33,177 nt of DNA, taken from IMG/VR virus record IMGVR_UViG_3300027963_000200, positions 1-33,177 of that record. The stretch is one strand, 5' to 3'. The stretch's first letter is position 1; each line of letters starts with the position of its first letter. The notes beneath the pieces are model-generated. The model had not been told where the DNA came from. It made no database searches and was given only the letters and a program-made list of their open reading frames with translations. A program made the position numbers and the translations under genes. The DNA comes from a virus. Shown in pieces: positions 84-32,621 of this stretch.

Positions 84-256
84 TAGTATATGAGTATAGA
101 TAGTAAATAGATAAGACCAAAAAACAAGATGGTGCGCCACACATACAGGGTCGCATACCATAGCACACGCTGCCACTTACGAAGTGCATGGTTGTGTTGT
201 GACTTTGCGTTAATGCCTAGCTGTAAATAGCGCATTGAATTTTTGATTGAGTCCAT
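83..256 (-). CDS. Small basic single-pass membrane protein, 57 aa (allele 1)
   Basis: The product starts MDSIKNSMRYLQLGI. It has a basic, aromatic middle (LRKWQRVLWYATLYVWRT) and a C-terminal hydrophobic segment of about 16 residues (ILFFGLIYLLSILIY). Both ends use one-base TAATG overlaps: its ATG overlaps the stop of the tail-tip gene, and its TAA overlaps the ATG of the tape measure gene. This argues for coupled translation of all three. I do not recognise the family. The placement between tail tip and tape measure is odd for a membrane protein; it might be a chaperone, a tail component or an ejection factor. The second allele at 32621-32794 differs at only five residues, so it is under constraint. 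Confidence 0.75.
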   Translation of the reverse strand: MDSIKNSMRYLQLGINAKSQHNHALRKWQRVLWYATLYVWRTILFFGLIYLLSILIY

Positions 257-3200
257 TATGCTGTTTTGTTTTGTTGGTATTGTAATGATGTGTTAATGAC
301 GAATGCATCCGGGTAAGTGCCACCTGTAAACGTCACATTTATTCGATGCTCATCTGTGTTGGTTGTTGTGTCAATGCCAAAGGTAAAAACGTTTGCACCG
401 ATAGAACCTATTGTGCTAATCGTGCTTATTGCACTGGCAGCAGCTAAGCCTCCAACCTTTTCAAGTGTAAAGTGTAGCAATGATGTTTCACTTGCGCCTG
501 ATGGTTCTTTGATTGTCACATTGAGTAAACAACTCCACAGCGTATCATCGGGCATGTTGATGTATTCACCTGCGATGCCTTCAATGTATAGATTCTCAAC
601 TTGACCTGATGTAGTAATGGTTGGATAGCGATGCAAAGCAAACTGCCCAAACTGCGCCCATCCATCTTCAGTTGCCGCAGGGTTGCCCGCTCTGTAACCC
701 CCGCCCACGTGCATGCCCGGAAGATTCGTCGTAACATTTTTACCTAATAAATTGCTACCGTTCACATTCTTTGTCAACTCCAAACGCTGACCAACTGCAA
801 CCATGTTTTGGTTTCCATTTTGAATTGTAACATTGTCACCATTGACAAATGAATTTACCACAGCCGCATTGCGTAGTTGTGCCTTTGTAACACGAGGCGA
901 GGGATTAGTAGAGCTTCCTGATGTGACCGAATTAGGTCTATCGCCCGTTGGTATGAATGCCCAGCACACTCCATTAGCCTCGTCCCATGTGTAGCCATAA
1001 CGACTACAGCAATCTTGCGTTGGTGGTACAGGATTATTTCCTGCGTCAACAAAGTTCACTTCACCATTAATTGCAATAGTTGAAGGAGTAGATGCACAGT
1101 CTTCCGTGTCCTCAAGGAACTTTAACAACTTAACCTTTGTGCTTTCCACATCGCCTACCTTGTAATCATTTACTTCAATGATTCTCCAGTAGCTATCCTG
1201 AATCCAAATCTTGTCGCTGAACTGAAATGTAAGAATGTCTTTAAGCGATAGCGCAAATGATGCTTCCATCATGCGTGCATCAGGTGAATACAGCGCATTC
1301 ATATAGGTGCGCCAATACTGATTAAATAGGTTGTTGTATGGATTGCTATAAATGAAGTGCGGTGGTACTTCAGGAGCCCAATTCAAATCTGAATCATCCA
1401 AATTAGCATAGACCGTGCTATAGTTATTTAACACAGGTACATTTGTTAGTGCAGCAGATGATACCGTCTCGCGATACAATTGCAACTGCACAACACCAGC
1501 TTCAAATAAACATCGCGGCCCCGGTGCAACAAATTGAACTTGCTCGTTCAAAAACATAGGCATCACATAACCACTACCATTGACAACACCTGATGGTGTG
1601 CTGCGTGTAACAAGTGAAATCTTTTGATCTCCGATTGCGAAGTCACTTGGCGCAATATCAGGATTGACTGTATAACCTACAGCTTCGTAGTCACCATACG
1701 TGCGTTCAACGTTCTTGTATTGCTTGCTTAGTATGTCTTCACCTGCTGTGTATGTAAATTGAAACTTACCTTTTTGCAAGTCAACTGTGCTGCCTATCGT
1801 GATGTCTTTTGATATGTCGAGCTTATCTGTCCAGTCGAGTACATTGCCGCTACCTAAATAGCTATTCTGCGGCACAATGTAAATGCGTGAAGGTATAGCC
1901 TTATCCGCTACGATTGCGCAGTTGTGCATCTTAATCACATCCGTTACGAAGTCGATTTGCTTCATATCGGGTGCGTTCAATTCGTAGTAAATACTTTGGT
2001 CATAGTTCAAGTTTGCAACAGCAAGACTTATCGAACTACCAATAACAAATTGCGCTGTGCCAACGCCTTGCTTATAGGTGTACCACGTTAGTGTATCACC
2101 TGCTTCTAGGACTTGCGAATCACCAAACGCCCACGGAGTCTCACCATCAAAAAATTGCACATCAATAATCGGGTAGTTGTTTGTTCCGTTTTTGATAGCT
2201 TGAACAAATACTCGCGCACTTGCGCCTGCAATCTGAACTATGAAATTGAAATTGAAAAAATAGCGACCACTTGCAGGTGCGGTGAAGGTATATGTTGCCG
2301 GGTTATAGTTACCATCATTGTCAAATATCTCGCTGTCCCATGCAATGTAGTTAAAGGCGCATGGCACTAGTGCTGTATTCTCTGCACGAAATGCAAAGCC
2401 ACCTGAGGTATCACTACCTTGCAAGAATCGAGAATTGCACCACGGCATCCAGTACGTGCTTAATATGCTTTCAATCGTACCACCAACCAATTCAAAACCT
2501 GCTTCCTTTACGATGTTACTAAACAAGAACCACCAACTAACCGCTGGCGTTAGGTCGGCAGGAAACACGGGCGCATTTGGGTCTTGCAATGGTCGAGTAT
2601 TTGCTTCCTCGTTATCGCTCCACTTTTGACCACGGTCTAATATCGTCCAAATACGATTGGCATTTGGGTCAGTAACTATTGCATACTTGACACTTTCATT
2701 TAGCGTTGTAAGTTCTGCAATATCTGCGAGCTTCTTTTCTCCGATGTTGCGTACAAGGTCAGGCGTTTCAGCATAGAATGCAAGCTCAACCTCGTTGATT
2801 CGGTTCTGTTGCTTGTATATCTTACGCACACGAACATAACCTGTAGCGATTGGCAGCGTATCTACACGAATTTCAGCAGGTAACTTGTAGTGAAAATAGT
2901 TGGATGAACCTGCATCTACGTTCACATCGAACAATGCACCCAGTGCAAGTTGGTTTGTTGCGCTAAATGGTACTCTGAATTCACGGCTGAAAGAACCCTG
3001 TGCAGTAAAGTTGTTGAGGTCTTGAAACTTCCAGTTTTGCGAAATGCTTTCATTCTCGAATAGATCAAGATATGTTTCTCTTTCATCACCCCATACAAAG
3101 TAACCGCCCGATGCTAAGGTAAAATCGAAAGTAAATGCAGTGCTAAAATTCACACGAGTGAATCCGGGTGTGGGCGTATCAGCTTGAATTGAATTACATG

Positions 3201-3387
3201 TACGCACATTCGTTTGTCCAAGTGAATTAATAAGCGTTACCGAAGTGCCAACAATCGTAGATTGATTTGAAAATGCAGGTACAATAATTCGAAACGAACC
3301 AACAGCACCTAATGTTGGCGCATTGCTTTGGCTGAATAAATTTATATTGCCCCCTGTGTTTACTATTAACTGTACTTCTCCGTTCAT
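256..3387 (-). CDS. Large tail-tip / baseplate protein with variable C terminus, 1043 aa
   Basis: This is a large structural protein of a type common in Bacteroidota siphophages. The N-terminal part carries a module around FENESISQNWKFQDLNNFTAQGSFSREFRVPF that I associate with this tail family. The central part (about residues 460-600, MKQIDFVTDVIKMHNCAIV...) resembles tail-associated hub proteins. The last 250 residues are low-complexity beta-rich sequence expected of receptor-binding tips. The gene lies just upstream of the 57-aa membrane protein and the tape measure gene, and one base after the 427-aa tail gene. The C-terminal 110 residues have a diverged homologue at the right end of the window (32805-33177), pointing to allelic variation in the host-contacting part. 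Role is inferred from size, composition and position. Confidence 0.75.
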   Translation of the reverse strand: MNGEVQLIVNTGGNINLFSQSNAPTLGAVGSFRIIVPAFSNQSTIVGTSVTLINSLGQTNVRTCNSIQADTPTPGFTRVNFSTAFTFDFTLASGGYFVWGDERETYLDLFENESISQNWKFQDLNNFTAQGSFSREFRVPFSATNQLALGALFDVNVDAGSSNYFHYKLPAEIRVDTLPIATGYVRVRKIYKQQNRINEVELAFYAETPDLVRNIGEKKLADIAELTTLNESVKYAIVTDPNANRIWTILDRGQKWSDNEEANTRPLQDPNAPVFPADLTPAVSWWFLFSNIVKEAGFELVGGTIESILSTYWMPWCNSRFLQGSDTSGGFAFRAENTALVPCAFNYIAWDSEIFDNDGNYNPATYTFTAPASGRYFFNFNFIVQIAGASARVFVQAIKNGTNNYPIIDVQFFDGETPWAFGDSQVLEAGDTLTWYTYKQGVGTAQFVIGSSISLAVANLNYDQSIYYELNAPDMKQIDFVTDVIKMHNCAIVADKAIPSRIYIVPQNSYLGSGNVLDWTDKLDISKDITIGSTVDLQKGKFQFTYTAGEDILSKQYKNVERTYGDYEAVGYTVNPDIAPSDFAIGDQKISLVTRSTPSGVVNGSGYVMPMFLNEQVQFVAPGPRCLFEAGVVQLQLYRETVSSAALTNVPVLNNYSTVYANLDDSDLNWAPEVPPHFIYSNPYNNLFNQYWRTYMNALYSPDARMMEASFALSLKDILTFQFSDKIWIQDSYWRIIEVNDYKVGDVESTKVKLLKFLEDTEDCASTPSTIAINGEVNFVDAGNNPVPPTQDCCSRYGYTWDEANGVCWAFIPTGDRPNSVTSGSSTNPSPRVTKAQLRNAAVVNSFVNGDNVTIQNGNQNMVAVGQRLELTKNVNGSNLLGKNVTTNLPGMHVGGGYRAGNPAATEDGWAQFGQFALHRYPTITTSGQVENLYIEGIAGEYINMPDDTLWSCLLNVTIKEPSGASETSLLHFTLEKVGGLAAASAISTISTIGSIGANVFTFGIDTTTNTDEHRINVTFTGGTYPDAFVINTSLQYQQNKTA

Positions 3388-3388
3388 G

Positions 3389-4672
3389 TTATGTCCAGTA
3401 TGAGTTTGATAAGCGCACTTTTAGAGTTACGTTGTATAGCTTGCCATCGCTTGCACGCTTTTCAACAAAGCTTGTATCGTCTATGTTGACAGGTATTTCA
3501 ATGGGCTTGCCTGCGTCTTCAGTTAGCCATGTGACTTGATTGCTCGCAAGTAGTCCACGCAATAGTTTAAACTCACCTTCCGTGATGTAATCAGATGTAA
3601 CAGTCAACACTTGCTGCACTAAGTTTTGGCGTTGTGTTAATCCCCTGTCGTTTGTGCTGAATATAGAAGTGCTGCCATTAAATAACACCTTTCGGTATTG
3701 CTTGCGTTCAATCTCGTTGGTTGTTTCCGACTTCTTTGTAAAGTTGAAATAGTCCCAACCGCCACGCGAGTTCACCCAACCAAGGCGCATGTTAGGCCAA
3801 TTGCAATCTGCCTGCCCGTAATCGTGTGCGTTATAGAAGATATATGTTTCACTCCTTCCACTTGCAGCATTAAATACAGCCACTGCATAGCACTTCCAGT
3901 TTGGGAATAGCGATGGCTTAACTGTCAATCCTGTCCAATCATTTAAGTTAGCAGGATACACAGGCAGGTTTTCGATGTTATAAGCATTCAAAAAAATTGT
4001 TTGCTGCACAGGTGCGCCTGCACTTGGAAAGATTGTGATGGTATACCTATCAATTACGTTGTTGCTTAGATATGTGTCATTGCCGGGTATCGACAACACG
4101 CCATAATCACTTTCCATAACAGGTATCCAAATGCTATTAGTTGCAGGGCCAAATCCCCATGTTTGGCTAAGGTAAAAAGGTGATGTGTCATTGTTGCGGT
4201 CACTCATTGCGTACGATGATGTACTCGTAAGCGATTGCTTCACCTTCTGACTTCCTGTTTCTACGTTTGGTTTGTAACCATCAATGACTTGAAAGTAACC
4301 ATTGACAGCTAAGCACTGGTCACCATTCACTTCACTACCTGCATTGAGCGTGAAAAGACCGTCTACCAACCACCATTCAGTTAAGATGAAATCGAGACTT
4401 ATTCCACTACCATCATCGCTTGTATCATCTGTGGCAAAGTGAAAGTTTTGCGGCTCTGCATTGCGCATAGTGTCAAGCAATGGATTGATGTCAAAATATA
4501 ACCTACCATCGGGCGCAGGGTTAAGATAGAACTGATAAGGCGTGCCCTGCAATATCACTTCAACACCGTACTTAAAACCAACGTTTGCGGTTTCATCACT
4601 TATTGCCACGATCATTAGCTTCTGCCCTCGCAATGCCCATTTATATGGTTGGTCATTTATCGTTATTGCCAT
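3389..4672 (-). CDS. Tail structural protein, distal-tail-like, 427 aa
   Basis: The protein is beta-rich and starts MAITINDQPYKWALRGQKLM. The gene lies immediately upstream of the large tail-tip gene and its start overlaps the stop of the 176-aa tail-completion-like gene by one base (TAATG). No enzyme motif, signal peptide or membrane segment is visible. Size and position just before the tail hub suggest a distal tail or baseplate component, comparable in place to Dit proteins. That role is inference from gene order; I do not recognise a specific family. Confidence 0.6.
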   Translation of the reverse strand: MAITINDQPYKWALRGQKLMIVAISDETANVGFKYGVEVILQGTPYQFYLNPAPDGRLYFDINPLLDTMRNAEPQNFHFATDDTSDDGSGISLDFILTEWWLVDGLFTLNAGSEVNGDQCLAVNGYFQVIDGYKPNVETGSQKVKQSLTSTSSYAMSDRNNDTSPFYLSQTWGFGPATNSIWIPVMESDYGVLSIPGNDTYLSNNVIDRYTITIFPSAGAPVQQTIFLNAYNIENLPVYPANLNDWTGLTVKPSLFPNWKCYAVAVFNAASGRSETYIFYNAHDYGQADCNWPNMRLGWVNSRGGWDYFNFTKKSETTNEIERKQYRKVLFNGSTSIFSTNDRGLTQRQNLVQQVLTVTSDYITEGEFKLLRGLLASNQVTWLTEDAGKPIEIPVNIDDTSFVEKRASDGKLYNVTLKVRLSNSYWT

Positions 4673-5202
4673 TATCTTTTATTTAGTAGTAATCGATTCT
4701 CTATTGATTTGATGTAGCCATCCATCAACTTATCTTTGTATTCGTCCCATGTATCGTCTATTGCTTCTTGGTAGTAGTTGATACCTTCAATACCCTTTTC
4801 GCCTATGCTCTTTGCAATGGCAATAGCTGCACTCTTAATGCTGCTTTCTGTTGCACGTATGAATTCACCTTGTCTATTACGAAGCTTCAATGGTTTCAAC
4901 TTAATCCACTTCATGATTTCTTTGTATGGTGGACGTTTAGTAGGGTCACCCGGATAAGGTTTGCGCCCAAACTCAATCACATCTGCATACTTTCCTGCCT
5001 CATCATTGCTTACGGTGAAGTCAATGGTGGGTTTGTTGTAGCGAATCTTTAAGTTGTAGTATAGTGAATTGAGCAAACGTCCTGAAGCAACACGATTAAC
5101 TGTCTTGCCACGCACTCTGCGTTTGATGCGCAGGTTAGATTGCGCACGCTCAACTACAGCCAGTGCGTATTCGTTTAGTATGTCCTCAAATGCATCGCTC
5201 AT
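4672..5202 (-). CDS. HK97 gp10-like tail completion / head-tail joining protein, 176 aa
   Basis: The N-terminal helix (FEDILNEYALAVVERAQSNL) is followed by a basic segment, RVASGRLLNSLYYNL, then DEAGKYADVIEFGRKPYPGDPTKRPP. The ASGRLLNSL and YADVIEFGR-P-P pattern is characteristic of the HK97 gp10 / minor tail completion group. Such proteins cap the tail or join it to the head connector. The ATG overlaps the stop of the 87-aa gene (ATGA), and its stop overlaps the next ATG by one base, so it belongs to the tightly coupled tail operon. Confidence 0.65.
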   Translation of the reverse strand: MSDAFEDILNEYALAVVERAQSNLRIKRRVRGKTVNRVASGRLLNSLYYNLKIRYNKPTIDFTVSNDEAGKYADVIEFGRKPYPGDPTKRPPYKEIMKWIKLKPLKLRNRQGEFIRATESSIKSAAIAIAKSIGEKGIEGINYYQEAIDDTWDEYKDKLMDGYIKSIENRLLLNKR

Positions 5203-5462: not shown

Positions 5463-7840
5463 ATTGTAATTATTACTTGGTTAGAAAGTACGTTGGCACT
5501 TACAGTTGCGGGTGCGTTGTTTTGGAACTTCATACCCATAAGGTCACCTGCTGCAACACTTACGCTATTGACCAAATCAGTGAACACGCCTGCTGCACTT
5601 CCTGCCGCAATGGTCAATGTCAATGCTTGGTCTACGCTGTTCTTGCGCACCGTGCATACAAGTGAACCTGTACCCGGCTGTGCAGTTGATGTTTGCACAT
5701 ATAGCTTTGTCAATGTACCTCCCGAAGCAATTGGTGTTCTACGCAATGTGTCCGTACTTACTATTGAGAGCGCACCACCAAACAAACAACCGAAGTAAGT
5801 TGAAGCCGCAGGTATGTTTGTAGCGTTTTGCGATTGGTATAATAGACTTGTGGAGCTTGAAGTAATACCTAAATCACTTACCATTTCAGCAGCAGTTCGT
5901 GCAGTAACCGTGTTGTCTGCATTAATCTTTAGATAGCGAACTGCACTTGGGTTTGTTAGCTTGGCTATGTTTTGTCCAACGGTTGTCGTGTCACCTAACT
6001 GAGTTACGTTTAGCTTTTGATGCCTCCACTCCACAGGTTGCGGACCAAAAGGAGTTGGCACAACTACCCATGTTTGACCATCTGTAGGTAGTCCACTTTG
6101 CATATCGTAGCTATGTATACGATGCACGGTTGGATTTGGATAGCTTCCTGTAAGGTCACCTGATGCTGCACCATTTGGAGGTAGTGCTGTTGGAGTTGTA
6201 GCAAGTTGACCATCGCCCCTCACGTATTGCGCACTTGTACCTGACGCACTTATCGCAAGTGTTCCTGCTGTAGTAATTGGGGAGCCTGTTACGCTGAATG
6301 CGGAAGGAACGGTAAGAGCAACCGATGTGACCGTGCCACTTGGTATGGTTGGTTTATTTTTTATAAAGTCTAGTGCCGCATTGTTTGATTGATTCCAATC
6401 ACTTTGAATCTGAGCAGCAGGAATGGTTGGTTGATTTATTAAGTCATTATAACTACCACTTGTGGCAACGGTTGCTAATGTTGGCTTATTGAGAATCTGT
6501 GCAACCCCGCTCACTGCATTCCAGTCTGAGTTAACTTGCGCAGGCGGTATAGTTGGAAACGTAGTCAATGCCCCATCACCTCGAACATACTGCGCACTTG
6601 TACCTGCGGCTGTTATGGCTATCGTGCCTGATGTTGTCACAGGTGAACCTGAAACGTTAAAGGCTGCAGGTGCAGTAAGTGCAACTGAAGTAACCGTGCC
6701 ACTACCTGTAGTTGGTGTAGATGCTATCCATTGCCCGGTGCTAGTGTTGTATGTAAGTACCTGCCCGTTTGTTGGTGCAGGCGTGTTGACATCCGTTAAG
6801 CTATCAAGCGTGGTCGGTATTGTTGGCTTGTTTAGTATTTGAGACAAACCACTAACACTATTCCAATCACTGTTCACTTGAGCAGCAGGGATAGTTGGTT
6901 TATTCAAGATTTGTGCAAGACCACTTGAAGCATTCCAATCTGCATTCACAGGTGTTGTGATGGTTGGCTTGTTCAATATTTGAAAATCACCTGTTGTTGC
7001 ATTCCAGTCTACAGGTGTTTGACGCAACCTGTTACCAACGCTTACAAGTTGCCAATACAAAGTGTTAGTTGGCAGGATAGCATCGTTGTTTGCAATGCAT
7101 TGGTATACGTTGCCTAGATACCATACCCTATCACCAACTACGTAAGGGTTGCCCGTTGCTGTGGTGTGGTTAACGTCAAAGGCAGTACTTACGTAATCAA
7201 TTAACGCACCTGCTGAATCAATTGTCACAGATCCATTGCCATTATCCGTGATGGTTATGTTAGTGCCTTCGACTAAGTTCAAAAGTGTTTGCACTACGTT
7301 CTCCACACCATTTGTTTCAAGCGTGATGCCATACCCTGTGCCTTCACCACCTGTGCCACTTGTACCACCAACAGACCATATCGCAGGAATGTCGCAAGCA
7401 CTCCAGTCCCACGGAACCGAAAGCTTCAAAGTGAACGCAATGCCGGTTACCGTGTTCTTTTGTTCCTCCATGAACGGTTCGAACGTTGGTGTTTCAAGAA
7501 GTTGCACATCGAAGCCAAACAACTCAAGACCATTCTTTACTTCAGCTATCAAGTCCTGCCCCAATCGGATGCAATCACTAATCACTTCGCGCTGGTATTC
7601 TGCCTTGTATTCTTTGTCGCGTGGTATATCCGCAAACATGATGTGAAAACCAAAGTTCATTGCACCCGGCACAGGCTCGATAGTGTCAGGTGTAACGTGC
7701 ATGAATGGATATTGATCGTCCTGTAGTTGGTCGCTCATATCAATTTGACCATGCGTGAAGCGTCTAATCAAGAAGTGACCTGCAGCAAATGCCTCAAGTC
7801 GATTGATGAGTACGTTGTAACTATAGTTGTAACTATTCAT
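5459..7840 (-). CDS. Tail protein fused to repeat-rich tail fibre, 793 aa
   Basis: Residues 1-160 form a globular alpha/beta domain (MNSYNYSYNVLINRLEAFAA..., ending LKLSVPWDWSACDIP) resembling tail-terminator or tail-attachment proteins of Bacteroidota phages. A glycine/serine linker follows. Residues 278-340 hold three copies of DWN-x(7-8)-QILNKPTI; a fourth lies at 439-454 and a degenerate fifth at 481-498. Two copies of a 47-residue module beginning GTVTSVALT and ending YVRGDG lie at about 381-427 and 502-547. These repeats are typical of phage fibre shafts. The C-terminal 120 residues are beta-rich without repeats and are the likely receptor-binding or trimerisation head. The ATG overlaps the stop of the frameshift product by one base. 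The role as adhesin is inferred. Confidence 0.75.
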   Translation of the reverse strand: MNSYNYSYNVLINRLEAFAAGHFLIRRFTHGQIDMSDQLQDDQYPFMHVTPDTIEPVPGAMNFGFHIMFADIPRDKEYKAEYQREVISDCIRLGQDLIAEVKNGLELFGFDVQLLETPTFEPFMEEQKNTVTGIAFTLKLSVPWDWSACDIPAIWSVGGTSGTGGEGTGYGITLETNGVENVVQTLLNLVEGTNITITDNGNGSVTIDSAGALIDYVSTAFDVNHTTATGNPYVVGDRVWYLGNVYQCIANNDAILPTNTLYWQLVSVGNRLRQTPVDWNATTGDFQILNKPTITTPVNADWNASSGLAQILNKPTIPAAQVNSDWNSVSGLSQILNKPTIPTTLDSLTDVNTPAPTNGQVLTYNTSTGQWIASTPTTGSGTVTSVALTAPAAFNVSGSPVTTSGTIAITAAGTSAQYVRGDGALTTFPTIPPAQVNSDWNAVSGVAQILNKPTLATVATSGSYNDLINQPTIPAAQIQSDWNQSNNAALDFIKNKPTIPSGTVTSVALTVPSAFSVTGSPITTAGTLAISASGTSAQYVRGDGQLATTPTALPPNGAASGDLTGSYPNPTVHRIHSYDMQSGLPTDGQTWVVVPTPFGPQPVEWRHQKLNVTQLGDTTTVGQNIAKLTNPSAVRYLKINADNTVTARTAAEMVSDLGITSSSTSLLYQSQNATNIPAASTYFGCLFGGALSIVSTDTLRRTPIASGGTLTKLYVQTSTAQPGTGSLVCTVRKNSVDQALTLTIAAGSAAGVFTDLVNSVSVAAGDLMGMKFQNNAPATVSANVLSNQVIITI
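6200..7009 (-). repeat. Fibre-shaft repeat region within the 793-aa gene
   Basis: The stretch encodes four clear and one degenerate copy of the DWN...ILNKPT motif and two copies of the GTVTSVALT...YVRGDG module. The modules are repeated at protein level and clearly related at DNA level. They probably form the fibre shaft, and offer homology for unequal recombination that changes shaft length. Confidence 0.8.
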
Positions 7841-8603
7841 TAGTGATGTCTTTTTCTCATTTCTACTTTCTGCACATAAACATAGTCGGCTAAATATGTC
7901 AAGTGCGTAAATACTTCAAATGCGTTGCGCTCTGTTACCGCATCAAACTTCGTTATGTCCCTGTCCGCAAGTGATTCGATGATGTGAAACCATCCGTAAG
8001 CGGCTAAGCCGTCTGGGGTTGTTCCGTCATCTCCTTCACTATCTCCGTTATCTCCTTTGCCAAATATTCGAGGGAACTGTTGTACAGCTCGATTTCTAAA
8101 CTCGAAAAAAAAAGCAGTACATTCAGTACATGGTCAAGCGTTAACTCCTTCACAGCGTCCACATACTTGCGTTTCGCATCAGTCTTGTATGGCTCGATGT
8201 CGTAGTAGTTGCCAAACTTCGCCTTAATCGGGCGATATAGTATGCACATCATCTTGAGTGCAGCCTCACCATTCACCTTACCATTTTGATAAAGGCTACT
8301 GCATGCGCTGTCAAGGTCAACGTATTCGCCAAAGGTCATTTCCTGAAGGTTAGGGATAAAGCCTAACTCAATTGCGTTGGCACGCACCTTCCGTTCAAAG
8401 TCATTGCTGCCTAACTTTATTGCAGCTTCAAAGCGCATGATGATTTCATCAATGATGTTGGCCTGTAGTAGTCTTATGCTTTCGCTGCTCTTACCCGTAA
8501 TGATATGCACCTGCTCAACCTTGTCGACTGCGTTCTGGTAGTCGATGTACTTGGCAAGTGATACGGCCTTTGCGTTAGCTGCTATGTTTAGCTTTAACTT
8601 CAT
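7840..8603 (-). CDS. GT-type tail assembly fusion made by -1 frameshift, 254 aa
   Basis: The 199-aa reading frame (8603-8004) overlaps a second open frame that ends at 7840 with TAATG overlapping the next gene. The second frame has no ATG, GTG or TTG before its well-folded-looking part (DGLAAYGWFHIIESLADRD...), so it needs ribosomes arriving from the first frame. A perfect slippery heptamer T_TTT_TTT lies in phase at 8112-8106. A -1 slip there yields 166 + 88 = 254 residues. The layout matches the conserved G/GT tail-assembly chaperones of siphophages, which coat the tape measure protein and recruit tail-tube subunits. The extension is acidic first (GKGDNGDSEGDDG) and then globular. Its position is some distance from the tape measure gene, which is unusual. 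Confidence 0.75.
8004..8603 (-). CDS. G-type tail assembly chaperone, unshifted product, 199 aa
   Basis: This is the zero-frame product of the frameshift gene, starting MKLKLNIAANAKAVSLAKYI. It is largely helical with the segment LTLDHVLNVLLFFSSLEIEL at residues 155-174, where the slip site encodes LFF (164-166). It ends EMTEQPQTA. Family assignment as tail assembly chaperone rests on the frameshift architecture and tail-operon location; direct sequence similarity to lambda G is not apparent. The 34-base gap upstream carries no obvious Shine-Dalgarno sequence, as usual in Bacteroidota. Confidence 0.7.
   Translation of the reverse strand: MKLKLNIAANAKAVSLAKYIDYQNAVDKVEQVHIITGKSSESIRLLQANIIDEIIMRFEAAIKLGSNDFERKVRANAIELGFIPNLQEMTFGEYVDLDSACSSLYQNGKVNGEAALKMMCILYRPIKAKFGNYYDIEPYKTDAKRKYVDAVKELTLDHVLNVLLFFSSLEIELYNSSLEYLAKEITEIVKEMTEQPQTA
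8106..8112 (-). promoter_or_regulatory. Programmed -1 ribosomal frameshift site T_TTT_TTT
   Basis: The mRNA carries nine consecutive U (8113-8105). In zero frame the codons are CUU UUU UUU UCG, giving an in-phase X_XXY_YYZ heptamer. A -1 slip continues UUC GAG UUU into the open frame ending at 7840. Both frames remain open for about 100 bases after the site, so this is not a simple truncated gene. A sequencing error in the homopolymer is the main alternative. Confidence 0.7.
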
Positions 8604-14791: not shown

Positions 14792-15022
14792 ATGAGTTAT
14801 CAATTGAAAGAAGGGCAAGGAAGCCTATTTAAAAACGTAAACAAGAAAGTACCAGCGCAACCCGACTGGACAGGCAATGTTATGATCAACGGACAAGAGA
14901 TGCGACTTGCTGCATGGGTGAAAGAGGGTAAAGGCGGCAAGTTCTTTTCGCTGCAACTCTCGGAAAATGAAAAGCCAAAGGAGCAGCCAATATCTAGTGA
15001 TGATGACGACGGTTTGTTCTAA
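14792..15022 (+). CDS. DUF736-like / SSB-like small protein with acidic tail, 76 aa
   Basis: The core GSLFKNVNKK...PDWTGNVMINGQEMRLAAW follows the DUF736-like pattern G-LFKN-KK-P-(Y/W)-G-AAW. The C terminus SSDDDDGLF resembles the acidic, hydrophobic-tipped tail by which single-strand DNA-binding proteins recruit partners. The protein sits between replication and terminase genes and in the block with recombinases. An accessory ssDNA-binding role is plausible. The terminase ATG overlaps its stop. Confidence 0.55.
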   Translation: MSYQLKEGQGSLFKNVNKKVPAQPDWTGNVMINGQEMRLAAWVKEGKGGKFFSLQLSENEKPKEQPISSDDDDGLF

Positions 15023-16320
15023 TGATTGAGTACCTGCCGAAACAGAATGAAGCACTGCGTGTGTTGGGTAATTCACACCCGGCACGTGTGGTGCTGTTCG
15101 GTGGTGCAGCAGGTGGATCTAAATCATTCATTGGATGTGCATGGCAAATAAGCCGCAGGTTCAAGTATCCCGGCACGCGAGGGTTGATAGGTCGCAGTAA
15201 GTTGGATACGTTAAAGAAGACTACGCTAAAGACTTTCTTCGAGGTAGCACAGATGTTTGGTCTTGCACCTAATGAGCATTACACCATTAACAACCAAACG
15301 CATGTGATAACGTTTGCTAATGGTAGTGAGATAATCCTGAAAGACTTGTTTGCGTATCCAAGTGATCCTGAATTTCACGCACTGGGTGGTCTTGAATTGA
15401 CAGATGCGTATGTAGATGAAGCTGCACAGGTTAGCAAACGAGCAATAGACATATTGCAGTCACGTCTTCGTTATAAGCTAAACCAATATGACCTCAAACC
15501 AAAGATGTTGCTTACATGCAACCCTTCAAAAGGATGGTTGTACAACGAGTTCTACGCCCCGTATAAGACGCAAAACTTACCGCAACATCTTGCGTTCATA
15601 CAATCATTGCCAAATGACAATCCGCATCTACCCGAATCGTACATTGAAACGCTGCGCATGTTGCCTGAAGTGGACAGAAGACGTCTACTGGATGGAGATT
15701 GGGAGTATGATGAGTCCGTAGACAACCTGTATCAATACGATGATTTGGTGCGCTGCTTTCGGGAAGAAGAAACAAAAGGCGATAAGTTTATCAGTGCCGA
15801 CATCGCACGCCTTGGAAAAGACCGTAGTGTCATTTGCGTGTGGCATGGTTTGCAATTGATGGAAATACACGAGCTGCGTAAGCAACCAATAACAACTGTT
15901 GTCGCTACCATACGCCAACTATGCGACAGGCACGCTATCAAATTAAGCAATGTGATCTGTGACGAAGATGGGGTCGGAGGGGGTGCGGTCGATGCGCTCC
16001 GTTGCCGGGGCTTCCTTAATGGTGGACGTGCTAAGCAATCAGATAAGTTCACCAACCAAAAGGCAGAATGCTATTTCAAGCTTGCCGAATTGATTGAGCA
16101 GAACAAAGTAATTTTCAAAGTGTCTCAGTTTCGCGATGTCATCGTGCAAGAACTGGACATGATACGTCGTAGGCAACCAGAAGCCGATGGTAAGTTGGCT
16201 GTGATAAGCAAAGATGAAATCGCACGCATGCATGGTAAGTCTCCTGACTATGCAGATGCCATCATGATGCGCATGTACTTCGAACTATTCCCGAACTACG
16301 GCAGCTATAGTTGGGCATAG
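15022..16320 (+). CDS. terL: Terminase large subunit, 432 aa
   Basis: This is the DNA-packaging motor. The ATPase half shows Walker A GGAAGGSKS (residues 27-35), Walker B AYVDEA (D132, E133) and a motif III-like LLTCNPS (163-169). The nuclease half shows D260 in SADIAR, CDEDGVGGG (D314, D316) and SPDYADA (D409, D412), the expected three acidic clusters of an RNase H-like fold. Length is normal and complete. It lies in the rightward early-type block on the strand opposite portal, capsid and the putative small subunit. The ATG overlaps the preceding stop by one base (TAATG). Confidence 0.95.
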   Translation: MIEYLPKQNEALRVLGNSHPARVVLFGGAAGGSKSFIGCAWQISRRFKYPGTRGLIGRSKLDTLKKTTLKTFFEVAQMFGLAPNEHYTINNQTHVITFANGSEIILKDLFAYPSDPEFHALGGLELTDAYVDEAAQVSKRAIDILQSRLRYKLNQYDLKPKMLLTCNPSKGWLYNEFYAPYKTQNLPQHLAFIQSLPNDNPHLPESYIETLRMLPEVDRRRLLDGDWEYDESVDNLYQYDDLVRCFREEETKGDKFISADIARLGKDRSVICVWHGLQLMEIHELRKQPITTVVATIRQLCDRHAIKLSNVICDEDGVGGGAVDALRCRGFLNGGRAKQSDKFTNQKAECYFKLAELIEQNKVIFKVSQFRDVIVQELDMIRRRQPEADGKLAVISKDEIARMHGKSPDYADAIMMRMYFELFPNYGSYSWA

Positions 16321-22597: not shown

Positions 22598-24526
22598 TTA
22601 TTGATTTCCGTAAATAGGATTGGTTGGTAAAAATCCGTTATAGGGCATGTCTTCTGGAAGCTTTGCAACAAGTGCATTGTTACGCACCTTATAGCCCATG
22701 CGTTCAGCAAGTGCAACAGCTATTCGTTTTGCGTCAGGATCATTCGGATTAATCTTTGCGCCTTTTGCATCTACATACACACGCTTTTCCCAAAAGTGTC
22801 GGCAGTTACCACCGCCTTTATAGAACCAAATGTCATAAGTGTCTGCGCCTTCAGGCCCCCATCCGGGATTGACTGCTACATTTTCCATCGACACGATGTC
22901 TTCTTTGCGGTATAGCTTGCCTGCCTCAATCATCTTCTTGCAAAATGGGCGCATGTTCTCATGAGTAAAACTACCTGCGTACACATAACGAGTAATAAAA
23001 TATTTGCCATCGATAACAGCATCTTGTTCACTTTTTGCCGCTGGTCGTGCTGCACCTGTGCGCACTGCAAACTCGTGTTCAATTTCTTCATCTGCGTTGT
23101 AGGCATCAATGAGCAACCACTCTTCCTTCCAGTCTTCGCCTAATGCAATGAGCGCATCACCTACTGTGCTATCATCTTTTTTTTTTTCGTCACTCATGAT
23201 GACCTCCTGCGGTTGCAAGCTACCCGGTAAGACATCGGCAAAGATTGCATCGACAGTTGCAGCAGGTAGTGTTGGGAATGCAGCTTGTACGATAGCCTTA
23301 GCACTTGTTACAGGTACAGCACCCGCAGCACTTTGCATTACGATGTCCACAAGTGAAGTAATCTGCGCACCATTTAAGGCTGTTGCAGCAACATCCGCTG
23401 TTGTTCCACCTGTTGTATCCGTAATCACTTCTGCCTGCTCAACTGCAAGTGGTGTGTTTGGTATAATCTCAAACGTTACACCCGGCATTTGATTGCTCAA
23501 TAGTTCTTCCAAGCTATAGTTAATCTTAGCCTGATATGGCTCAATCACCTGGTTGTTGAATATCTCAAGACCTGTAGCCATCTCATCTTTATTGCTACCA
23601 AATCCAGTGTTCTCGCGAATACCAAAGAGAAGTGGCGTAGTAACACGATGCGCTGTTATTATCTTCTGAGTTGCCGTATCGTTCATTAGTTGATACTGCT
23701 TATCCGCATCATTCACAGGGAATGGTGTAATCTCAGTCTTAGGTTGGTCACGCTCGTTGAAGAACATAACCACCTTACCTGCATTACGTGCGCCACTCAT
23801 CTTGTTCTCCCAATCATTCATCATCTGTTGCTTCTGTTCAGGCGTTGCCTGCCCGTTGTAGAAGTTGATAATGGTTGATGGAAAAAGACCGTTGCTTATT
23901 TGGTTGATATGGAAGATTGAAATCTGTTTATCTAACTCAATATAGTTGATAGCACTCCAGTAGTCAGGTCGTGGATAGACATCGCTGCCCGTATAAGTGA
24001 AGCACCAGTATATCTGTCGTGGTTCAGCCTCGCGTGTGAGGTAGTTATACTTGGGAATGAATTCAGGAGTGTTTCTTTTCTTGCGTGTATTTGCCCAATC
24101 GTAGCTGTGGAAGATTCCTATTTCGCTATCGTCATCCTGATTGACCGCAATGCGACATTCCTCGAATGGTATCGCGTTTAGCTTTGAAATAACCGTTCTA
24201 TCATTGCTCCAAATCACTTCAACATAAAAGCCACCAAACAACTTCAAGTCGTGCGCAGCAGCATAAGTCAATGTGTCGATGTTGAGTGCGTCAAGTTCTG
24301 CTTGATATTGCTCTGACTGGATGCCCTTCCCGGCTATCATATCACCAATGGCAACAACAAGTGATCCATGCACTGGAGATTCGTGCGCAAGGTCACGCAG
24401 GTATTGCGGAAAGTCGTTTGCATCACCGTAGTTAACCCAACCTTTGCGGTCTACTTTTTCCGCATCCGACTTAGCAACATACTCGCTAAGCTTTAATGAT
24501 ACTATATTCGATTCGTTATGGCTCAT
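22598..24526 (-). CDS. Portal protein with C-terminal extension, 642 aa
   Basis: Residues 1-400 form a portal: WVNYGDANDFPQYLRDL, IAGKGI, FGGFYVEVIW, PKYNYL..., then RVTTPLLFGIRENTGFGSNK DEM (split) and FNNQVIEPYQAKINYSLEEL, all typical of SPP1-type/Bacteroidota phage portals. Normal portals end near 440. Here a further 199 residues follow, including RYVYAGSFTHENMRPFCKKM, NPGWGPEGADTYDIWFYKGG and GNCRHFWEKRV, a small Cys/His domain that occurs joined to various head proteins in these phages. The junction (M444) carries a strong Shine-Dalgarno sequence and 11 A. I chose ATG 24526 (11-base overlap); ATG 24538 adds four residues. Confidence 0.85.
   Translation of the reverse strand: MSHNESNIVSLKLSEYVAKSDAEKVDRKGWVNYGDANDFPQYLRDLAHESPVHGSLVVAIGDMIAGKGIQSEQYQAELDALNIDTLTYAAAHDLKLFGGFYVEVIWSNDRTVISKLNAIPFEECRIAVNQDDDSEIGIFHSYDWANTRKKRNTPEFIPKYNYLTREAEPRQIYWCFTYTGSDVYPRPDYWSAINYIELDKQISIFHINQISNGLFPSTIINFYNGQATPEQKQQMMNDWENKMSGARNAGKVVMFFNERDQPKTEITPFPVNDADKQYQLMNDTATQKIITAHRVTTPLLFGIRENTGFGSNKDEMATGLEIFNNQVIEPYQAKINYSLEELLSNQMPGVTFEIIPNTPLAVEQAEVITDTTGGTTADVAATALNGAQITSLVDIVMQSAAGAVPVTSAKAIVQAAFPTLPAATVDAIFADVLPGSLQPQEVIMSDEKKKDDSTVGDALIALGEDWKEEWLLIDAYNADEEIEHEFAVRTGAARPAAKSEQDAVIDGKYFITRYVYAGSFTHENMRPFCKKMIEAGKLYRKEDIVSMENVAVNPGWGPEGADTYDIWFYKGGGNCRHFWEKRVYVDAKGAKINPNDPDAKRIAVALAERMGYKVRNNALVAKLPEDMPYNGFLPTNPIYGNQ
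23177..23207 (-). promoter_or_regulatory. Internal Shine-Dalgarno, ATG and A11 run in the portal gene
   Basis: On the mRNA strand GGAGGT (23207-23202) stands four bases before an in-frame ATG (23197-23195), soon followed by 11 A (23187-23177) read as GAA AAA AAA AAA. Either a separate 199-aa C-terminal protein is made from this ATG, or slippage on the A run ends translation: both other frames stop within five codons, giving a portal of about 455 residues. Such a strong Shine-Dalgarno sequence is rare in this genome. Confidence 0.5.
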
Positions 24527-24905
24527 AGATGATGTCATTTGGTATAGTTACTACAGGCACATCAAACCACGTGGTGTTCTGATTTAATACAGCATATCCA
24601 CGCTGACATAAACCAATAACAAGACCGCTTGCCGGGTCAACATTGCTACTAGAATTTTGTCCATATACTTCATACCTGTACCTGCCTGCTAATGTAAGGC
24701 CAACAGTAGTTACTTCAAGTTCTGTAATGCGCACATTCTCATTAACAATGGTTGCAACCTGTGCAAGCTTATTGCCTGTTGTGCTATTCTCTTCGTGTGT
24801 TAGTACCAACAAATAGTTGGTGAATGGTGTGGCAAAGTATTGCCGTGCTTCGTCAAGTGATAGAAACACTTGTTGCGTTGGTGTATTTGTTTGAAGATAG
24901 ATCAT
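24516..24905 (-). CDS. Head-module protein, 129 aa
   Basis: Starts MIYLQTNTPTQQVFLSLDEA. Beta-rich, with RYRYEVYGQNSSSNVDP in the centre. It lies between the capsid terminator and the portal, overlapping the portal start by 11 bases. Proteins of this look occur in structural regions of Bacteroidota phages; a head or stopper role is inferred from place only. Confidence 0.6.
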   Translation of the reverse strand: MIYLQTNTPTQQVFLSLDEARQYFATPFTNYLLVLTHEENSTTGNKLAQVATIVNENVRITELEVTTVGLTLAGRYRYEVYGQNSSSNVDPASGLVIGLCQRGYAVLNQNTTWFDVPVVTIPNDIIYEP

Positions 24906-27424: not shown

Positions 27425-29488
27425 TTACTTAGTCACTAGAATAGTTGAAGTGTTATTTGTTGCGACCGCATCTGGTGAACCATTCACGGCTACGATTTGA
27501 ATCGTAAAGTTGCGTGGCACAGTAATGCCATTTAAGTACATCACACTTCCAAATGACATGCTTGCACCTACAGCAATCCTATCTGCTCTATCCCATGTCG
27601 CAATCTGACCACCTTCAAAACCATATGTTGCCTTCCAACTTGTAATCGGAACACTACCACGATTGAATGTGGTGTAGTTAATGCGAACACGATTAGCATC
27701 GAGCCATGTAAAGCTGTTAATCTTTATTTCTGCATCTACACCTGTTGTTGGTGGATTGAGTGCAGTAATGGTCGTGCCTGTGCTTATGGTGTTATCATTC
27801 TCATTGAACTCTAGTATCACCATGTTTGGATCTATGGTAAGTGAGAATTGAGAATTACCAGTCACGTTGTTTGGTAAACCAAAAGGCGTTGTCTTAGTTG
27901 CTACCAATTGACCTGCGGGAATAGTTACATCTCCAGTGTAGAATATAAACTTTGTACCATCGGGACGTGTGAACGTAAGCTGCACAGTTGCCGTTACATC
28001 TTTACTATACACTCTGTCCATGTTGACCGTATAAACAACGTTGATGCTTGTGCCTTGTACCGCGTTTGCAGGCGTGCTAATTGTACCAAACAGATTGAAC
28101 TCAGGCGTTGGTACAGGCACAGGATTTCCACCATCTAAACTTTTAGCGATGGTCACTGCACTAAACATATCGATTACACCATAGCCAAGTTCTGCACTCT
28201 TGCCGTTAACGTCGTAAACATAGCCGCCTGTCTTTCTCGCAGCTTGACGCATTACATCGGACACCTGCGATTCAGTAAGTGCAGGATTAGCAAGAATTAC
28301 ATTGCCTGCAATTGCAGCCATAACAGGGCATGAACATGATGTGCCACTGAAGTTGGTGTAGTTGCTTGTCGCGTTATAACCAAATGCGCCCATGCGGTCA
28401 ACTGTTGGGCATCCTCTGCCGGGTGTTGCAGCAAAAGTCTTTGGCCCATAGTTACTAAATGACGCACGTGTGTTTGTTTGCGTTGATGCACCAACCGCAT
28501 GTACCATCGGATAGATAGCAGGAGCTTGTGTAAAGTTGCCATTGTTTTGGTTTCCGCTACTAGCAAAAATCGGAATGCCTTTTCCACCACGTCCATAAGT
28601 CTTTGCCGCTGTCATTGCGTTTTGAAATAGTGGATAGCTTGACGAATCACCACCACCCCATGACATTGACACAGCCACGCAGTTAGGATTAGCAATTGCT
28701 TTGTTAATTGCACGTGTTACGATGGTATCCGATGTGCCAAAGCTACCACCTGCTGTAGATCCATATCCAATGTGTAGAAATTGAACCTTCAACTTGTTGT
28801 TGCCAAGTGATGACACGCCTATGTTGTTGTCTGTTGATGCGCATATCAAACCACTGCAACATGTACCATGTTTTTCAAACTCACTAATAGGGCGAACATC
28901 AGCCGCATCCGTTACGCAATTCCATGATGTGTTGCTTATCATGCCCTGCAAGTCTTCATGGTCAACATCGCACGCAATATCCAGCACAGCTACTTCACCA
29001 TAGGCAGCACCATCAATCAATCCCCATGCTTCTTTGGCTTTAAGGTTTGGCAAATGCCATTGTCCATCGTACGTGTAAGCATCTGCATTCACTTGGAATG
29101 GTTGAATGTAGTCAGGCTCGACGCTCGTGAATAGTTTGGTATTCATTAACGCAGCATAGAACTCGTCAAACGAGGCGAATGCAGGCACTTCCACAAACAT
29201 CGTGTTGGTTAGTCTAAACGTTTCAGTAACCAATACCTTGTTCTTGTTTAGATATGCAATTGCCGCATCCAAATCAGGAGCAACAAGGATAGCAAGTCCA
29301 GTAGGTATGTTGTTGAGTGAACCATCTACTTGGTATGCCTGCGATACTTTGGAAGAATCAGGAGCAACCGGGTTAACATCTTCGAAGACGATGATGCCAA
29401 ACGGCTCATGCACTGCACGAACATTCGGCTTGTTTTTGTTTTTGTCAAAGGACGTTTTGTCTTTGAACTTAACAGCATTTATTTTCAT
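27425..29488 (-). CDS. Subtilisin-like serine protease with CARDB-like C-terminal domains, 687 aa
   Basis: The S8 triad is complete: D170 in VAVLDIACDVDHEDL, H207 in EKHGTCCSGLI, S384 in SGTSCSCPVMAAIAGN, with oxyanion N313 in ASSGNQ. Residues 60-130 resemble an I9-type propeptide (LVAPDLDAAIAYLNKNKVLV). Residues 460-687 form two beta-sandwich domains of the CARDB kind (VQGTSINVVYTVN, FNENDNTIST; VPITSWKAT). There is no signal peptide. It overlaps the XkdF-like gene by four bases, so it belongs to the head-assembly genes. It might mature virion proteins or act at the cell surface as a virion enzyme. Confidence 0.85.
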   Translation of the reverse strand: MKINAVKFKDKTSFDKNKNKPNVRAVHEPFGIIVFEDVNPVAPDSSKVSQAYQVDGSLNNIPTGLAILVAPDLDAAIAYLNKNKVLVTETFRLTNTMFVEVPAFASFDEFYAALMNTKLFTSVEPDYIQPFQVNADAYTYDGQWHLPNLKAKEAWGLIDGAAYGEVAVLDIACDVDHEDLQGMISNTSWNCVTDAADVRPISEFEKHGTCCSGLICASTDNNIGVSSLGNNKLKVQFLHIGYGSTAGGSFGTSDTIVTRAINKAIANPNCVAVSMSWGGGDSSSYPLFQNAMTAAKTYGRGGKGIPIFASSGNQNNGNFTQAPAIYPMVHAVGASTQTNTRASFSNYGPKTFAATPGRGCPTVDRMGAFGYNATSNYTNFSGTSCSCPVMAAIAGNVILANPALTESQVSDVMRQAARKTGGYVYDVNGKSAELGYGVIDMFSAVTIAKSLDGGNPVPVPTPEFNLFGTISTPANAVQGTSINVVYTVNMDRVYSKDVTATVQLTFTRPDGTKFIFYTGDVTIPAGQLVATKTTPFGLPNNVTGNSQFSLTIDPNMVILEFNENDNTISTGTTITALNPPTTGVDAEIKINSFTWLDANRVRINYTTFNRGSVPITSWKATYGFEGGQIATWDRADRIAVGASMSFGSVMYLNGITVPRNFTIQIVAVNGSPDAVATNNTSTILVTK

Positions 29489-30081
29489 TTGTTGGGGTTT
29501 ACATCTTTCAATAACTGATCTATCTCCAGCAACAATTCCGCTTCGTAATTCATCACGCCACTTAATGACACGCCTACCTCGTTAAAGAATCCTTCAATGC
29601 TATAGCCTCGCACTTTACCTTCTTTTACATCTTCCCATACGTGATCTTCATCCACCTTAGTTCCGATGAACCATGTGCCATCAGGTAGGTCGGGCAATCC
29701 AAGCTGCATTGATTTATCCATCTTGCCTTCTTTGATCCATGATTCAACCACGGTCACGCCCGTGACTGGTATCTCATGCTGCAGGTTGGTCGTGTGTTGC
29801 AGGTTCTTTTTGAAAAACTGATGTGCAATTGCGCTTACTGTGGCCTTTTCAAAGTACACATAGTATGGTTCGCCCTTATCATCATAGCGCAATATCTCCT
29901 TATCCGGGATGAGTGCAGGGCCGTACAGCATGCGACGTTCTTCGTCAACCTTTGCAAGTTGCATCTTGCTCAGCGCAATCCAGTTCTCTTCGATTGCAGG
30001 ACTATCAACTAAGCCCATTGCTGTAATGCCCAAACGGCCTTCCTCATCTATCACACACTTAACTACTTTTCTTTTTTCCAT
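29485..30081 (-). CDS. XkdF-like prohead serine protease, 198 aa
   Basis: The pattern LGITAMGLVDSPAIEENWIAL, then RMLYGPALIPDKEILR, YYVYFEKATVSAIAHQFFKK and WEDVKEGKVRGYSIEGFF is that of the PBSX XkdF family of phage head proteins with protease fold. H in FFKKNLQHTTNLQHE and S in RGYSIEG are the likely catalytic His and Ser. It would cleave scaffold and capsid during prohead maturation. Located between tape measure and subtilisin genes. Confidence 0.75.
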   Translation of the reverse strand: MEKRKVVKCVIDEEGRLGITAMGLVDSPAIEENWIALSKMQLAKVDEERRMLYGPALIPDKEILRYDDKGEPYYVYFEKATVSAIAHQFFKKNLQHTTNLQHEIPVTGVTVVESWIKEGKMDKSMQLGLPDLPDGTWFIGTKVDEDHVWEDVKEGKVRGYSIEGFFNEVGVSLSGVMNYEAELLLEIDQLLKDVNPNK

Positions 30082-30101: not shown

Positions 30102-32621
30102 TTATCCTATTCGTGCTAAGTCTTGCACCTTCTCGCGTACTTCTTGCTGCGATGCTACGTCACCTGCCAGCACATACGCTCGTGGTGTGATTTGCTCAGG
30201 TCTATCTTGCAAGAATGATGCGGCAAGAGGGTTGAACTGCGCAGGTTGTGCGCCCGTATCCGCTCCACCACCTGTTGCAGGAACTGAGGCAGTCGAGTCA
30301 TTGCCACCTGAACCACCTCCACCAAATTGCGAGTTTTTAATTTTGATGATTTGCGCCAAACCTAGTGCAGCAGCAATACCTGCCTCAACAAATTGAGCAC
30401 CTGTTGCAAGCTTTACAGGGTTACCACCTGCGGTCAATGCCCCGGTTACGGCAGATGCAGTTTGTACTGTTGCCGCACCAATAGCAAGTGCCTTATCTGT
30501 TTTAAATTTCTTGCGTGCATCTGCATCACCTTTCTTTGTTGACGCATCACTGAATGCCTGCAATACTTGCAATGCACCTTGTGCTAACTGCAAACCTTTT
30601 TGAACGCTATCCGCTTTAATTGCTACTTCTTCGTTTGCACTATTTTCTTGAATGGCCTTAAGTTCAGCGGCTAATCTTTTTTGCAAATCAACTGTGCTTT
30701 TGCCTGCTGCATCTGCCTTAGCAAACAACCTTTCGTAGCGTTCTGTCACTCGCAGTTCTTCCTGTTCACCCTTGCTCAATGACGCTGCGTAAGCTTCGTC
30801 CTCTGCGGCAAACTTTTCCTGATTCAGTGCTTGTAGATCTGCAAAGAAATCGTCTTCAAGTGACTTGCGCTTGTCAGCTTCAGACTGTGCATTGGCTGTG
30901 CGCTGTGCTTCCAGTGCAGCAAGTTCAGCGTTTAGTTGTTGCTGTAGTAAGATTGTGTCTTTACCTGCGGCATCTGCTGCGGCAAACAATGCTTCGTACT
31001 TCTGAACGATGGCAAGTTCTTCCTGCTCTTGTTTGGTTAGCGTTTCGCGATAGCGCTCGTCTTCAAGGGCAGCAAGTTTTTGATAATACTCATCAACTTT
31101 TTGCGCTTGCTTTTCAAGATTTGCCTTTTGTGCTGCTAGTTCTTTATCAGCTACTGCCTTATTATCTGCTGCTGCTTTTTCCCTACGTGCTTTGTCTTTT
31201 GCATCTTGTGCGTTTAGTATCGCATCACGTTGATTGTTTAGCGACACCAAACTCTTTTTCGTATCTGCAACAATCTTTGCCTGATCTTTCTTCTCTTGTT
31301 CCGGGTCAAATATCTTCTTTACAATGAAGTTGTTTACATCTTCAAATACACCTGAAACATCTATCTTTTCAATGCCCAGTCCTAACTTGTTCAGGATATC
31401 AATTGAGCCGTTTACAAAGCCTTCAAAGAACTCAGCAAGCTTGCGCTGTGGAAACGTAACAAAGTCAAGGAATGTCTTTAAGTATTCAGCATTACGTTCA
31501 GCTGCTTTGATTTGTGCCTCTGCCTGTATTTGTGTGGTTTCAACTACTGCCTGTTGTTCAAGTATGGCAGTGTCTAATGCTTGCAACTTCAGGTCTGTAA
31601 TCTGCTTTTCAGTTAATCCTTGACGCTTTAATGATTCCTCCTGCGCACCTATCGCATCGACTTGTTCCTTTGCCAATGCTGCACGTTCCTTCTGTATATC
31701 CAGTGACTTTCTTTCTGCATCTGTTACGCCATCGACAAGAGACAACAGTTCATCTGCGTAAACAATAGCAGCGGCAATGGCTGCACCAATTAAAAATATC
31801 GGGTTAGTAAGTAATGCCTTACCAATGGATGCAAATGCGCTGCCTATTCCCTGAATGCCTTTTGCAATATCACCCGGTTTAATGTCTGTGATATTTTTAG
31901 CCAGCAACTTAGCACCTTCTGCTGCACCTTCAAAGTCAAGGTTTGCAATACGTGAGGTGACTAATCCTAGTGATCCACCAACACGCTCGAATGCACCACC
32001 CGCCTGTGTGCCTACTGCCTGTGCAGCATCCTGAATCTTGTCTTTAAGTTCACCCGCTGCCGCACTCAATTCGCGATACTTTGCACTATCAGGTTCTGTG
32101 TTTGCAAGTTCAGCCTGTAATTCACGCAGCTGTGCTTTAAGTGACTTGCTGGATGTAACTACTTTTTCTTCGGTAACTGCCAACTCTTGAAAATCTGCAC
32201 TCGCAGTTTCAATGCTGGATGTGTCAACCTTTGTATCTTTTAATTCCGTGTTGAGTTGGTCGGTTGCATTAGCTAATTGCGTCACGGGTGCAACAGCTTG
32301 TTCAACTGCATCGCCTACTTGCTCAATACTCTTTGCTGCATCACCTGCATCGATGTCTTGTAATGCTGTGCCTATCTCATCAATCTTGCCCGTTTCAATC
32401 TGCGTGATGGTTGTTTCGAGCTGTTTGATTTGGCTATTGACATCTGCAAATGCTTCTGTGTTTGGGTCAAGATTTTTTAGTTGCCCATCCAAGTTAAGCA
32501 ACTGCGCATACATCGCATCCAGTGATGCGGTCGTTGCATTTATGCCAACACTCAGTTGTTGCAGGTTTTGTTCCGCAGCACTTGTGTCAATTACAAAACT
32601 TCTAACAATAGGTTCAGCCAT
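30102..32621 (-). CDS. Tape measure protein, 839 aa
   Basis: The chosen start (32621, MAEPIVRSFVIDTSA) overlaps the upstream TAA by one base; an in-frame ATG at 32714 lies inside the small membrane protein gene and is rejected. Coiled coil covers the N-terminal 200 residues; a hydrophobic segment (FLIGAAIAAAIVYADEL) lies near 270-290; long helical repeats follow. Two tandem copies of EQEEL...YE-LFA-ADAAGK-T--LQ--L-AEL are visible near 540-690. The C terminus has glycine-rich linkers. By the usual rule of about 0.15 nm per residue the tail would be roughly 125 nm. Confidence 0.9.
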   Translation of the reverse strand: MAEPIVRSFVIDTSAAEQNLQQLSVGINATTASLDAMYAQLLNLDGQLKNLDPNTEAFADVNSQIKQLETTITQIETGKIDEIGTALQDIDAGDAAKSIEQVGDAVEQAVAPVTQLANATDQLNTELKDTKVDTSSIETASADFQELAVTEEKVVTSSKSLKAQLRELQAELANTEPDSAKYRELSAAAGELKDKIQDAAQAVGTQAGGAFERVGGSLGLVTSRIANLDFEGAAEGAKLLAKNITDIKPGDIAKGIQGIGSAFASIGKALLTNPIFLIGAAIAAAIVYADELLSLVDGVTDAERKSLDIQKERAALAKEQVDAIGAQEESLKRQGLTEKQITDLKLQALDTAILEQQAVVETTQIQAEAQIKAAERNAEYLKTFLDFVTFPQRKLAEFFEGFVNGSIDILNKLGLGIEKIDVSGVFEDVNNFIVKKIFDPEQEKKDQAKIVADTKKSLVSLNNQRDAILNAQDAKDKARREKAAADNKAVADKELAAQKANLEKQAQKVDEYYQKLAALEDERYRETLTKQEQEELAIVQKYEALFAAADAAGKDTILLQQQLNAELAALEAQRTANAQSEADKRKSLEDDFFADLQALNQEKFAAEDEAYAASLSKGEQEELRVTERYERLFAKADAAGKSTVDLQKRLAAELKAIQENSANEEVAIKADSVQKGLQLAQGALQVLQAFSDASTKKGDADARKKFKTDKALAIGAATVQTASAVTGALTAGGNPVKLATGAQFVEAGIAAALGLAQIIKIKNSQFGGGGSGGNDSTASVPATGGGADTGAQPAQFNPLAASFLQDRPEQITPRAYVLAGDVASQQEVREKVQDLARIG

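Follow-up and report, generated by a model that had tools for sequence, protein, structure and literature searches.

Ribosomal recoding is classically exemplified by the frameshifted tail assembly chaperones of phages, and the slippery heptamers vary from one such frameshift site to another. The tail chaperones of dsDNA phages are described as products of -1 ribosomal frameshifting (reviewed in PMC5009743). In Shigella mxiE, two ORFs are joined in a different way, i.e. by the insertion of one extra U (PMC1088944), and mxiE and tssM are tested examples of transcriptional slippage (PMC1088944, PMC4256274), which at such sites reaches an efficiency of about 15-30% (PMC4256274). A run of nine A or nine T whose length is conserved among homologues has been considered very likely to reflect purposeful transcriptional slippage (Baranov et al. 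2005, PMC1088944). In the open-access literature we found no case of a phage tail chaperone that uses transcriptional slippage.

Here, we analysed a locus, termed Z/E, in a stretch of 33,177 nucleotides of viral DNA (IMG/VR record IMGVR_UViG_3300027963_000200; referred to as the window), which bears a likeness to both groups of systems. As in lambda G/GT, P2 E/E' and HK97 gp13, two frames overlap and the shift takes place near the end of the first, and as in lambda the pair precedes the tape measure gene within the tail operon, on the same strand. However, Z/E precedes the tape measure gene by five genes, whereas lambda G/GT is adjacent to it; there is no clear sequence homology between the two pairs, and profile searches matched E to no named family. 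Moreover, the join in Z/E is always a run of nine to twelve T (T9-T12), whereas pairs of the G/GT type use varied slippery heptamers. With mxiE, tssM and the insertion sequence (IS) elements, which slip at 9-11 A or T, Z/E has in common a homopolymer of at least nine that joins two ORFs, a length conserved among homologues, and an organisation, conserved in 495 of 496 Z/E loci, in which one inserted base would give the long product. In contrast to these bacterial genes and IS elements, Z/E is a phage structural-assembly gene, and slippage is deduced here from conservation, whereas mxiE and tssM are tested cases. A further parallel is dnaX of Thermus thermophilus, where transcriptional slippage on A9 likewise involves a homopolymer of nine and two products per gene; slippage in dnaX yields the shorter product, whereas at Z/E it would yield the longer one.

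The -1 join at the T run

In the window, the zero frame of the minus-strand ORF 8603-8004 reads CTG CTT TTT TTT TCG AGT at the site (Table 1). The encoded protein Z consists of a conserved 166-aa domain with its C-terminal end (..LLFF) at the T run, followed by a 33-aa tail that is dual-coded with the -1 frame. The -1 frame, which is entered when T8106 of the minus strand is re-read and which encodes the extension E, is open from just past a TGA at 8136-8134 through to a TAA at 7842-7840, and this stop codon shares its last A with the next ATG (7840). The predicted products comprise 199 aa (Z) and 254 aa (Z-E, with 88 aa past the shift). A preliminary description of this DNA had noted the in-phase T_TTT_TTT, the -1 frame that is open up to a TAA overlapping the ATG at 7840, and the same two product sizes, all of which we could validate by sequence, frames and translation. 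Its second frame without a start codon was likewise found in the window clade, the first ATG, GTG or TTG of the -1 frame in the window being a TTG at 7902 within the globular part.

Table 1 Features of the Z/E locus and of related tail genes in the window.
Feature	Position	Strand	Evidence or remark
Z, zero-frame ORF, 199 aa	8004-8603	minus	phrog_32199, E 3.6e-9; AlphaFold2 model
T9 run, junction of both frames	8105-8113	minus	contains in-phase T_TTT_TTT, 8112-8106
E, -1 frame extension, 88 aa, start-less	7840-8106	minus	homologous to phrog_38404 (P12024S gp39) via intermediates
Tail-fibre-like next gene, 793 aa	5459-7840	minus	phrog_9729 tail fibre, E 1e-36; start overlaps E stop (TAATG)
Syntenic tail/neck gene common with P12024S	4672-5202	minus	phrog_29822, E 3.6e-6
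Tape measure gene as called	30102-32714	minus	phrog_24676 tape measure, E 1.4e-12

The set of loci was extended by profile scans with search patterns that did not contain the T run. A first scan yielded 80 loci, close relatives from many metagenomes, of which 79 carry exactly T9 in the same phase and in the -1 relation, and a start codon is absent in these 79 save for one GTG case. Both domains are present in 496 loci according to the profile searches, and Z and E stand in a -1 relation at the T run in 495 of them; the expectation raised earlier, that homologues would always be joined at the T run, thus held with one exception, the in-frame fusion L002. These loci collapse to 322 distinct contexts, which fall into 37 lineages at <50% protein identity (22 at 40%). 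Run lengths are T9 (282 contexts), T10 (36), T11 (2) and T12 (2), and none is shorter, i.e. a run of 7 or 8 T occurs in none of the 322 contexts or 37 lineages. Likewise, neither T_TTT_TTC nor any other heptamer takes the place of the run in the 322 contexts, all of which contain the in-phase T_TTT_TTT. The E extension measures 73-95 aa across the loci. The distinctive feature of the family is a run of at least nine T as the sole join across 37 lineages.

In the other coding sequence of 62 diverse representatives and the window (389 kb), long T runs are avoided. No run of nine or more T was observed there compared with 3.2 expected from synonymous shuffling, and for T8 the numbers were 3 observed and 8.9 expected (T8 or longer: 3 vs about 12). 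From the absence of such runs elsewhere we conclude that T9 at the -1 join is not a product of chance. The exceptional locus (L002:2475-3137) encodes a natural in-frame Z-E fusion of 220 aa that is devoid of the T run and the overlap segment; its Z part is 95% identical to that of another locus, L079, and it represents either a true constitutive fusion or an assembly deletion.

Predicted identity of the two products and their genomic setting

Since Z sequences were aligned with the E region in a joint alignment led by L002, the structures of Z and E were predicted separately. The AlphaFold2 model of Z (8603-8106) is confident with a pLDDT of 92.5, and that of E (pLDDT 75) shows a small helical domain behind a flexible linker. 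The N-terminal helices of relatives are matched by the tail protein family phrog_166 (E 2.9e-5) and, in one relative, by Phage_TAC_7 with a best E of 0.0067, which is below the family cut-off. Among solved structures, the HK97 tail assembly chaperone is the only entry listed at a Z-score of at least 2 (3.6 over 57 residues), and those entries of the BFVD list whose names bear a function are tail assembly chaperones or tail assembly proteins (E 0.09-1.9); for Z, Foldseek returned no significant match in the PDB. For E, the Foldseek search of the PDB gave one weak chain, which was rejected as unrelated. Eight viral proteins of 234-267 aa occur in the fold lists of both Z and E, which suggests that distant relatives carry Z-E as a single ORF. 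Based on gene order, the two-product architecture and these family and fold matches, which are weak but agree with each other, Z/E is probably a tail assembly chaperone-like pair. By analogy, it would work like lambda G/GT, in which case Z may coat the tape measure and E may recruit the major tail protein.

The only cultured relatives that we found are the Nonlabens (Persicivirga) phages P12024S and P12024L from the phage collection, with about 24% identity. P12024S gp38 carries CTTTTTTTTTATC, and its -1 frame runs into gp39. The pairs gp38/gp39 and gp40/gp41 of P12024S/L define PHROGs 32199 (Z) and 38404 (E), with function unassigned there. They are true homologues of the window pair, with which they agree in the register of T9 and in the -1 join, and they have the gene order up to a tape-measure-like gene in common with it; they differ in that an ATG is available in the second frame and in that the record gives two hypothetical proteins and no frameshift. 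In bacterial genomes, a first scan with the Z/E profiles gave no match and a later one gave a single match, a 3-kb contig of a Winogradskyella MAG. A distant Z-like gene without T9 was observed in Flavobacterium phage 6H (L352:10352-10927, minus strand; HMM E 2e-4).

Z/E, the phrog_29822 gene and the tape measure gene are arranged in this order in both the window and P12024S, whose gp42 matches phrog_29822 at an E of 2.8e-111 and, in addition, phrog_5 (tail completion/Neck1) at 4e-4. The tape measure gene start occurs a second time at positions 1 to about 90 of the window, which means that on a circular map the tape measure gene follows a gene for a 1043-aa protein (256-3387). With this placement, E and the tape measure gene are separated by five genes, which agrees with the distance from the tape measure gene that had been pointed out before. 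The contig ends (1-255 and 32600-33177) overlap as strain variants, each of them containing the tape measure start, and a variant C-terminus of the 1043-aa gene is found in the right one. Judging by this overlap, the genome is probably a complete one that is circularly permuted and encodes a variable tail-tip protein. The large terminase gene (15022-16320, plus strand) is surrounded by early-type genes and separate from the head and tail module on the minus strand; in P12024S, Z/E comes immediately after it. Also on the minus strand (27425-29488 and 29485-30081), a large protease-like protein (phrog_3677) directly follows an XkdF-type head protease and precedes the capsid genes.

RNA polymerase or ribosome as the slipping machine

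Judged from the sequence comparison, the Z-E fusion is almost certainly expressed, and it would arise by slippage on T9. It is very improbable that E is made separately by internal or coupled initiation and that the overlap is incidental. In the annotation of P12024S, gp39 starts at an ATG within the E frame, and an ATG precedes the conserved W motif of this frame in 56 of 313 contexts, which would fit such initiation. However, the remaining 257 contexts lack an ATG there, 122 lack ATG, GTG and TTG altogether, and all of them keep the T run; furthermore, Z and E share one frame in L002 and probably also in the distant viral proteins with a single ORF. The preliminary description had regarded a start codon in the second frame of homologues as evidence against a programmed frameshift; such codons do exist in places, but the T run and the -1 overlap are kept there as well. 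Even less credence can be given to a sequencing or assembly error or a phase-variable DNA run. Homopolymers are indeed error-prone in sequencing and replication, but a run of the same or greater length, always in the -1 relation, is found in several hundred assemblies as well as in two cultured phages, and no run allele brings E in frame with Z. With T9 in 79 of the 80 close relatives, T9-T12 in 495 of the 496 loci and T9 in P12024S/L, an assembly error or phase variation can be rejected.

The position of the run relative to the codons differs among lineages. Most lineages show the usual register nTT TTT TTT Tnn, and others the alternative nnT TTT TTT TTn. In 78 of the 322 contexts the codon preceding the run is not nTT, and in all 78 of these the following codon is TTn, compared with just 4 of the 244 contexts in which the preceding codon is nTT. 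From this compensation we conclude that a length of at least nine is conserved, and not the register. In the alternative register, the preceding codon encodes Asn, Gly, Ser, Ala, Asp or Cys, so that hydrophobicity does not hold this position family-wide. The register requires four changes on trees of 54 and 62 representatives, and at least two to three switches are forced by well-supported branches. The raw Fisher test of the association between register and TTn (p 1e-70) ignores relatedness, and a sign test over the independent switches fell short of significance with too few pairs.

Windows of 60 nt around the site were folded for 54 representatives. The mean z was about 0 directly before and after the run, i.e. 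there was no hairpin signal, and the only mild dips, at -180 and +80 nt, are farther away than stimulators usually lie; the 95 nt downstream of the run in the window gave no structure signal either (z 0.33). A Shine-Dalgarno-like motif within 22 nt upstream of the run was present in 4 of the 54 representatives. In 58 of 62 representatives the third frame stops at most seven codons past the run, and such early stops would limit junk products of other slips, both the count and this reading being confounded by dual coding. A bias between the Arg codons AGR and CGN was considered as a sign of a selected third-frame stop (p 0.012), but was discarded since it is confounded by dual coding as well.

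Since any T9 contains an in-phase T_TTT_TTT whatever its register, the sequence alone cannot decide which machine slips. The features of the run nevertheless make it fairly likely that RNA polymerase slips rather than the ribosome, since at least nine T are conserved across register moves, folding gave no hairpin signal next to the site, Shine-Dalgarno-like motifs precede the run in only 4 of 54 representatives, and a -1 ribosomal slip needs only T7. A less likely but serious alternative is ribosomal -1 frameshifting by tandem tRNA-Phe slippage at T_TTT_TTT, as in G/GT pairs of the lambda type and with the same chaperone role, in which case the extra T's would be held by amino-acid constraints or would improve slippage. 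It could draw on the heptamer kept in every context, on the precedent of the tail chaperones of dsDNA phages (PMC5009743) and on the hydrophobic residues beside the run in most lineages; in the usual register, the outer T's fit an amino-acid constraint (L/V/I before the run, F/L in the -1 frame). However, although seven T would suffice, no lineage has settled for seven or eight or has adopted a different heptamer, and the length is kept as the register shifts. Thus, while the conserved -1 join and the tail-module arrangement of the G/GT-like programmed frameshift in the preliminary description stand, its ribosomal mechanism is disfavoured, and the minority share that it gave to the longer product is an assumption. 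As a whole, we lean slightly towards a chaperone-like two-product gene whose long form would arise by RNA polymerase slippage on T9. Ordinary readout would give the 199-aa protein; slippage of the polymerase would leave a fraction of the transcripts with one U gained or two lost, which would put the -1 frame in phase, and ordinary translation of these transcripts would yield the 254-aa fusion.

We tentatively suggest, as somewhat less than an even prospect, that this family of Bacteroidota phages sets its two chaperone forms by RNA polymerase slippage on T9 or longer, as the first tail-chaperone system of this kind, possibly with a second site at an A10-A11 run in the portal gene of the window clade. 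If this is true, a large and mostly uncultured phage family has found a second solution to the two-product problem, at another step of gene expression; the RNA polymerase of the late genes would determine the product ratio, and the long product escapes gene callers in every one of these genomes. The cultured P12024S and its Nonlabens/Persicivirga host make polymerase slippage directly testable.

The A run in the portal gene

The window contains an A11 run at 23177-23187 (minus strand) inside the portal ORF 22598-24538, where the portal domain meets an extra C-terminal domain. An A10 or A11 run is kept in frame, with differing flanks, in the KKK linker of 15 of the 16 portals of the window clade. 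One extra A in the run of the window would lead to a stop codon two codons further on and hence to a portal protein without the extra domain. The run is a candidate for slippage of the dnaX type, to which it would be a closer parallel than Z/E. The L521 portal has A10 with a different junction, and the distant relatives L523-L525 encode a portal protein without the A run.
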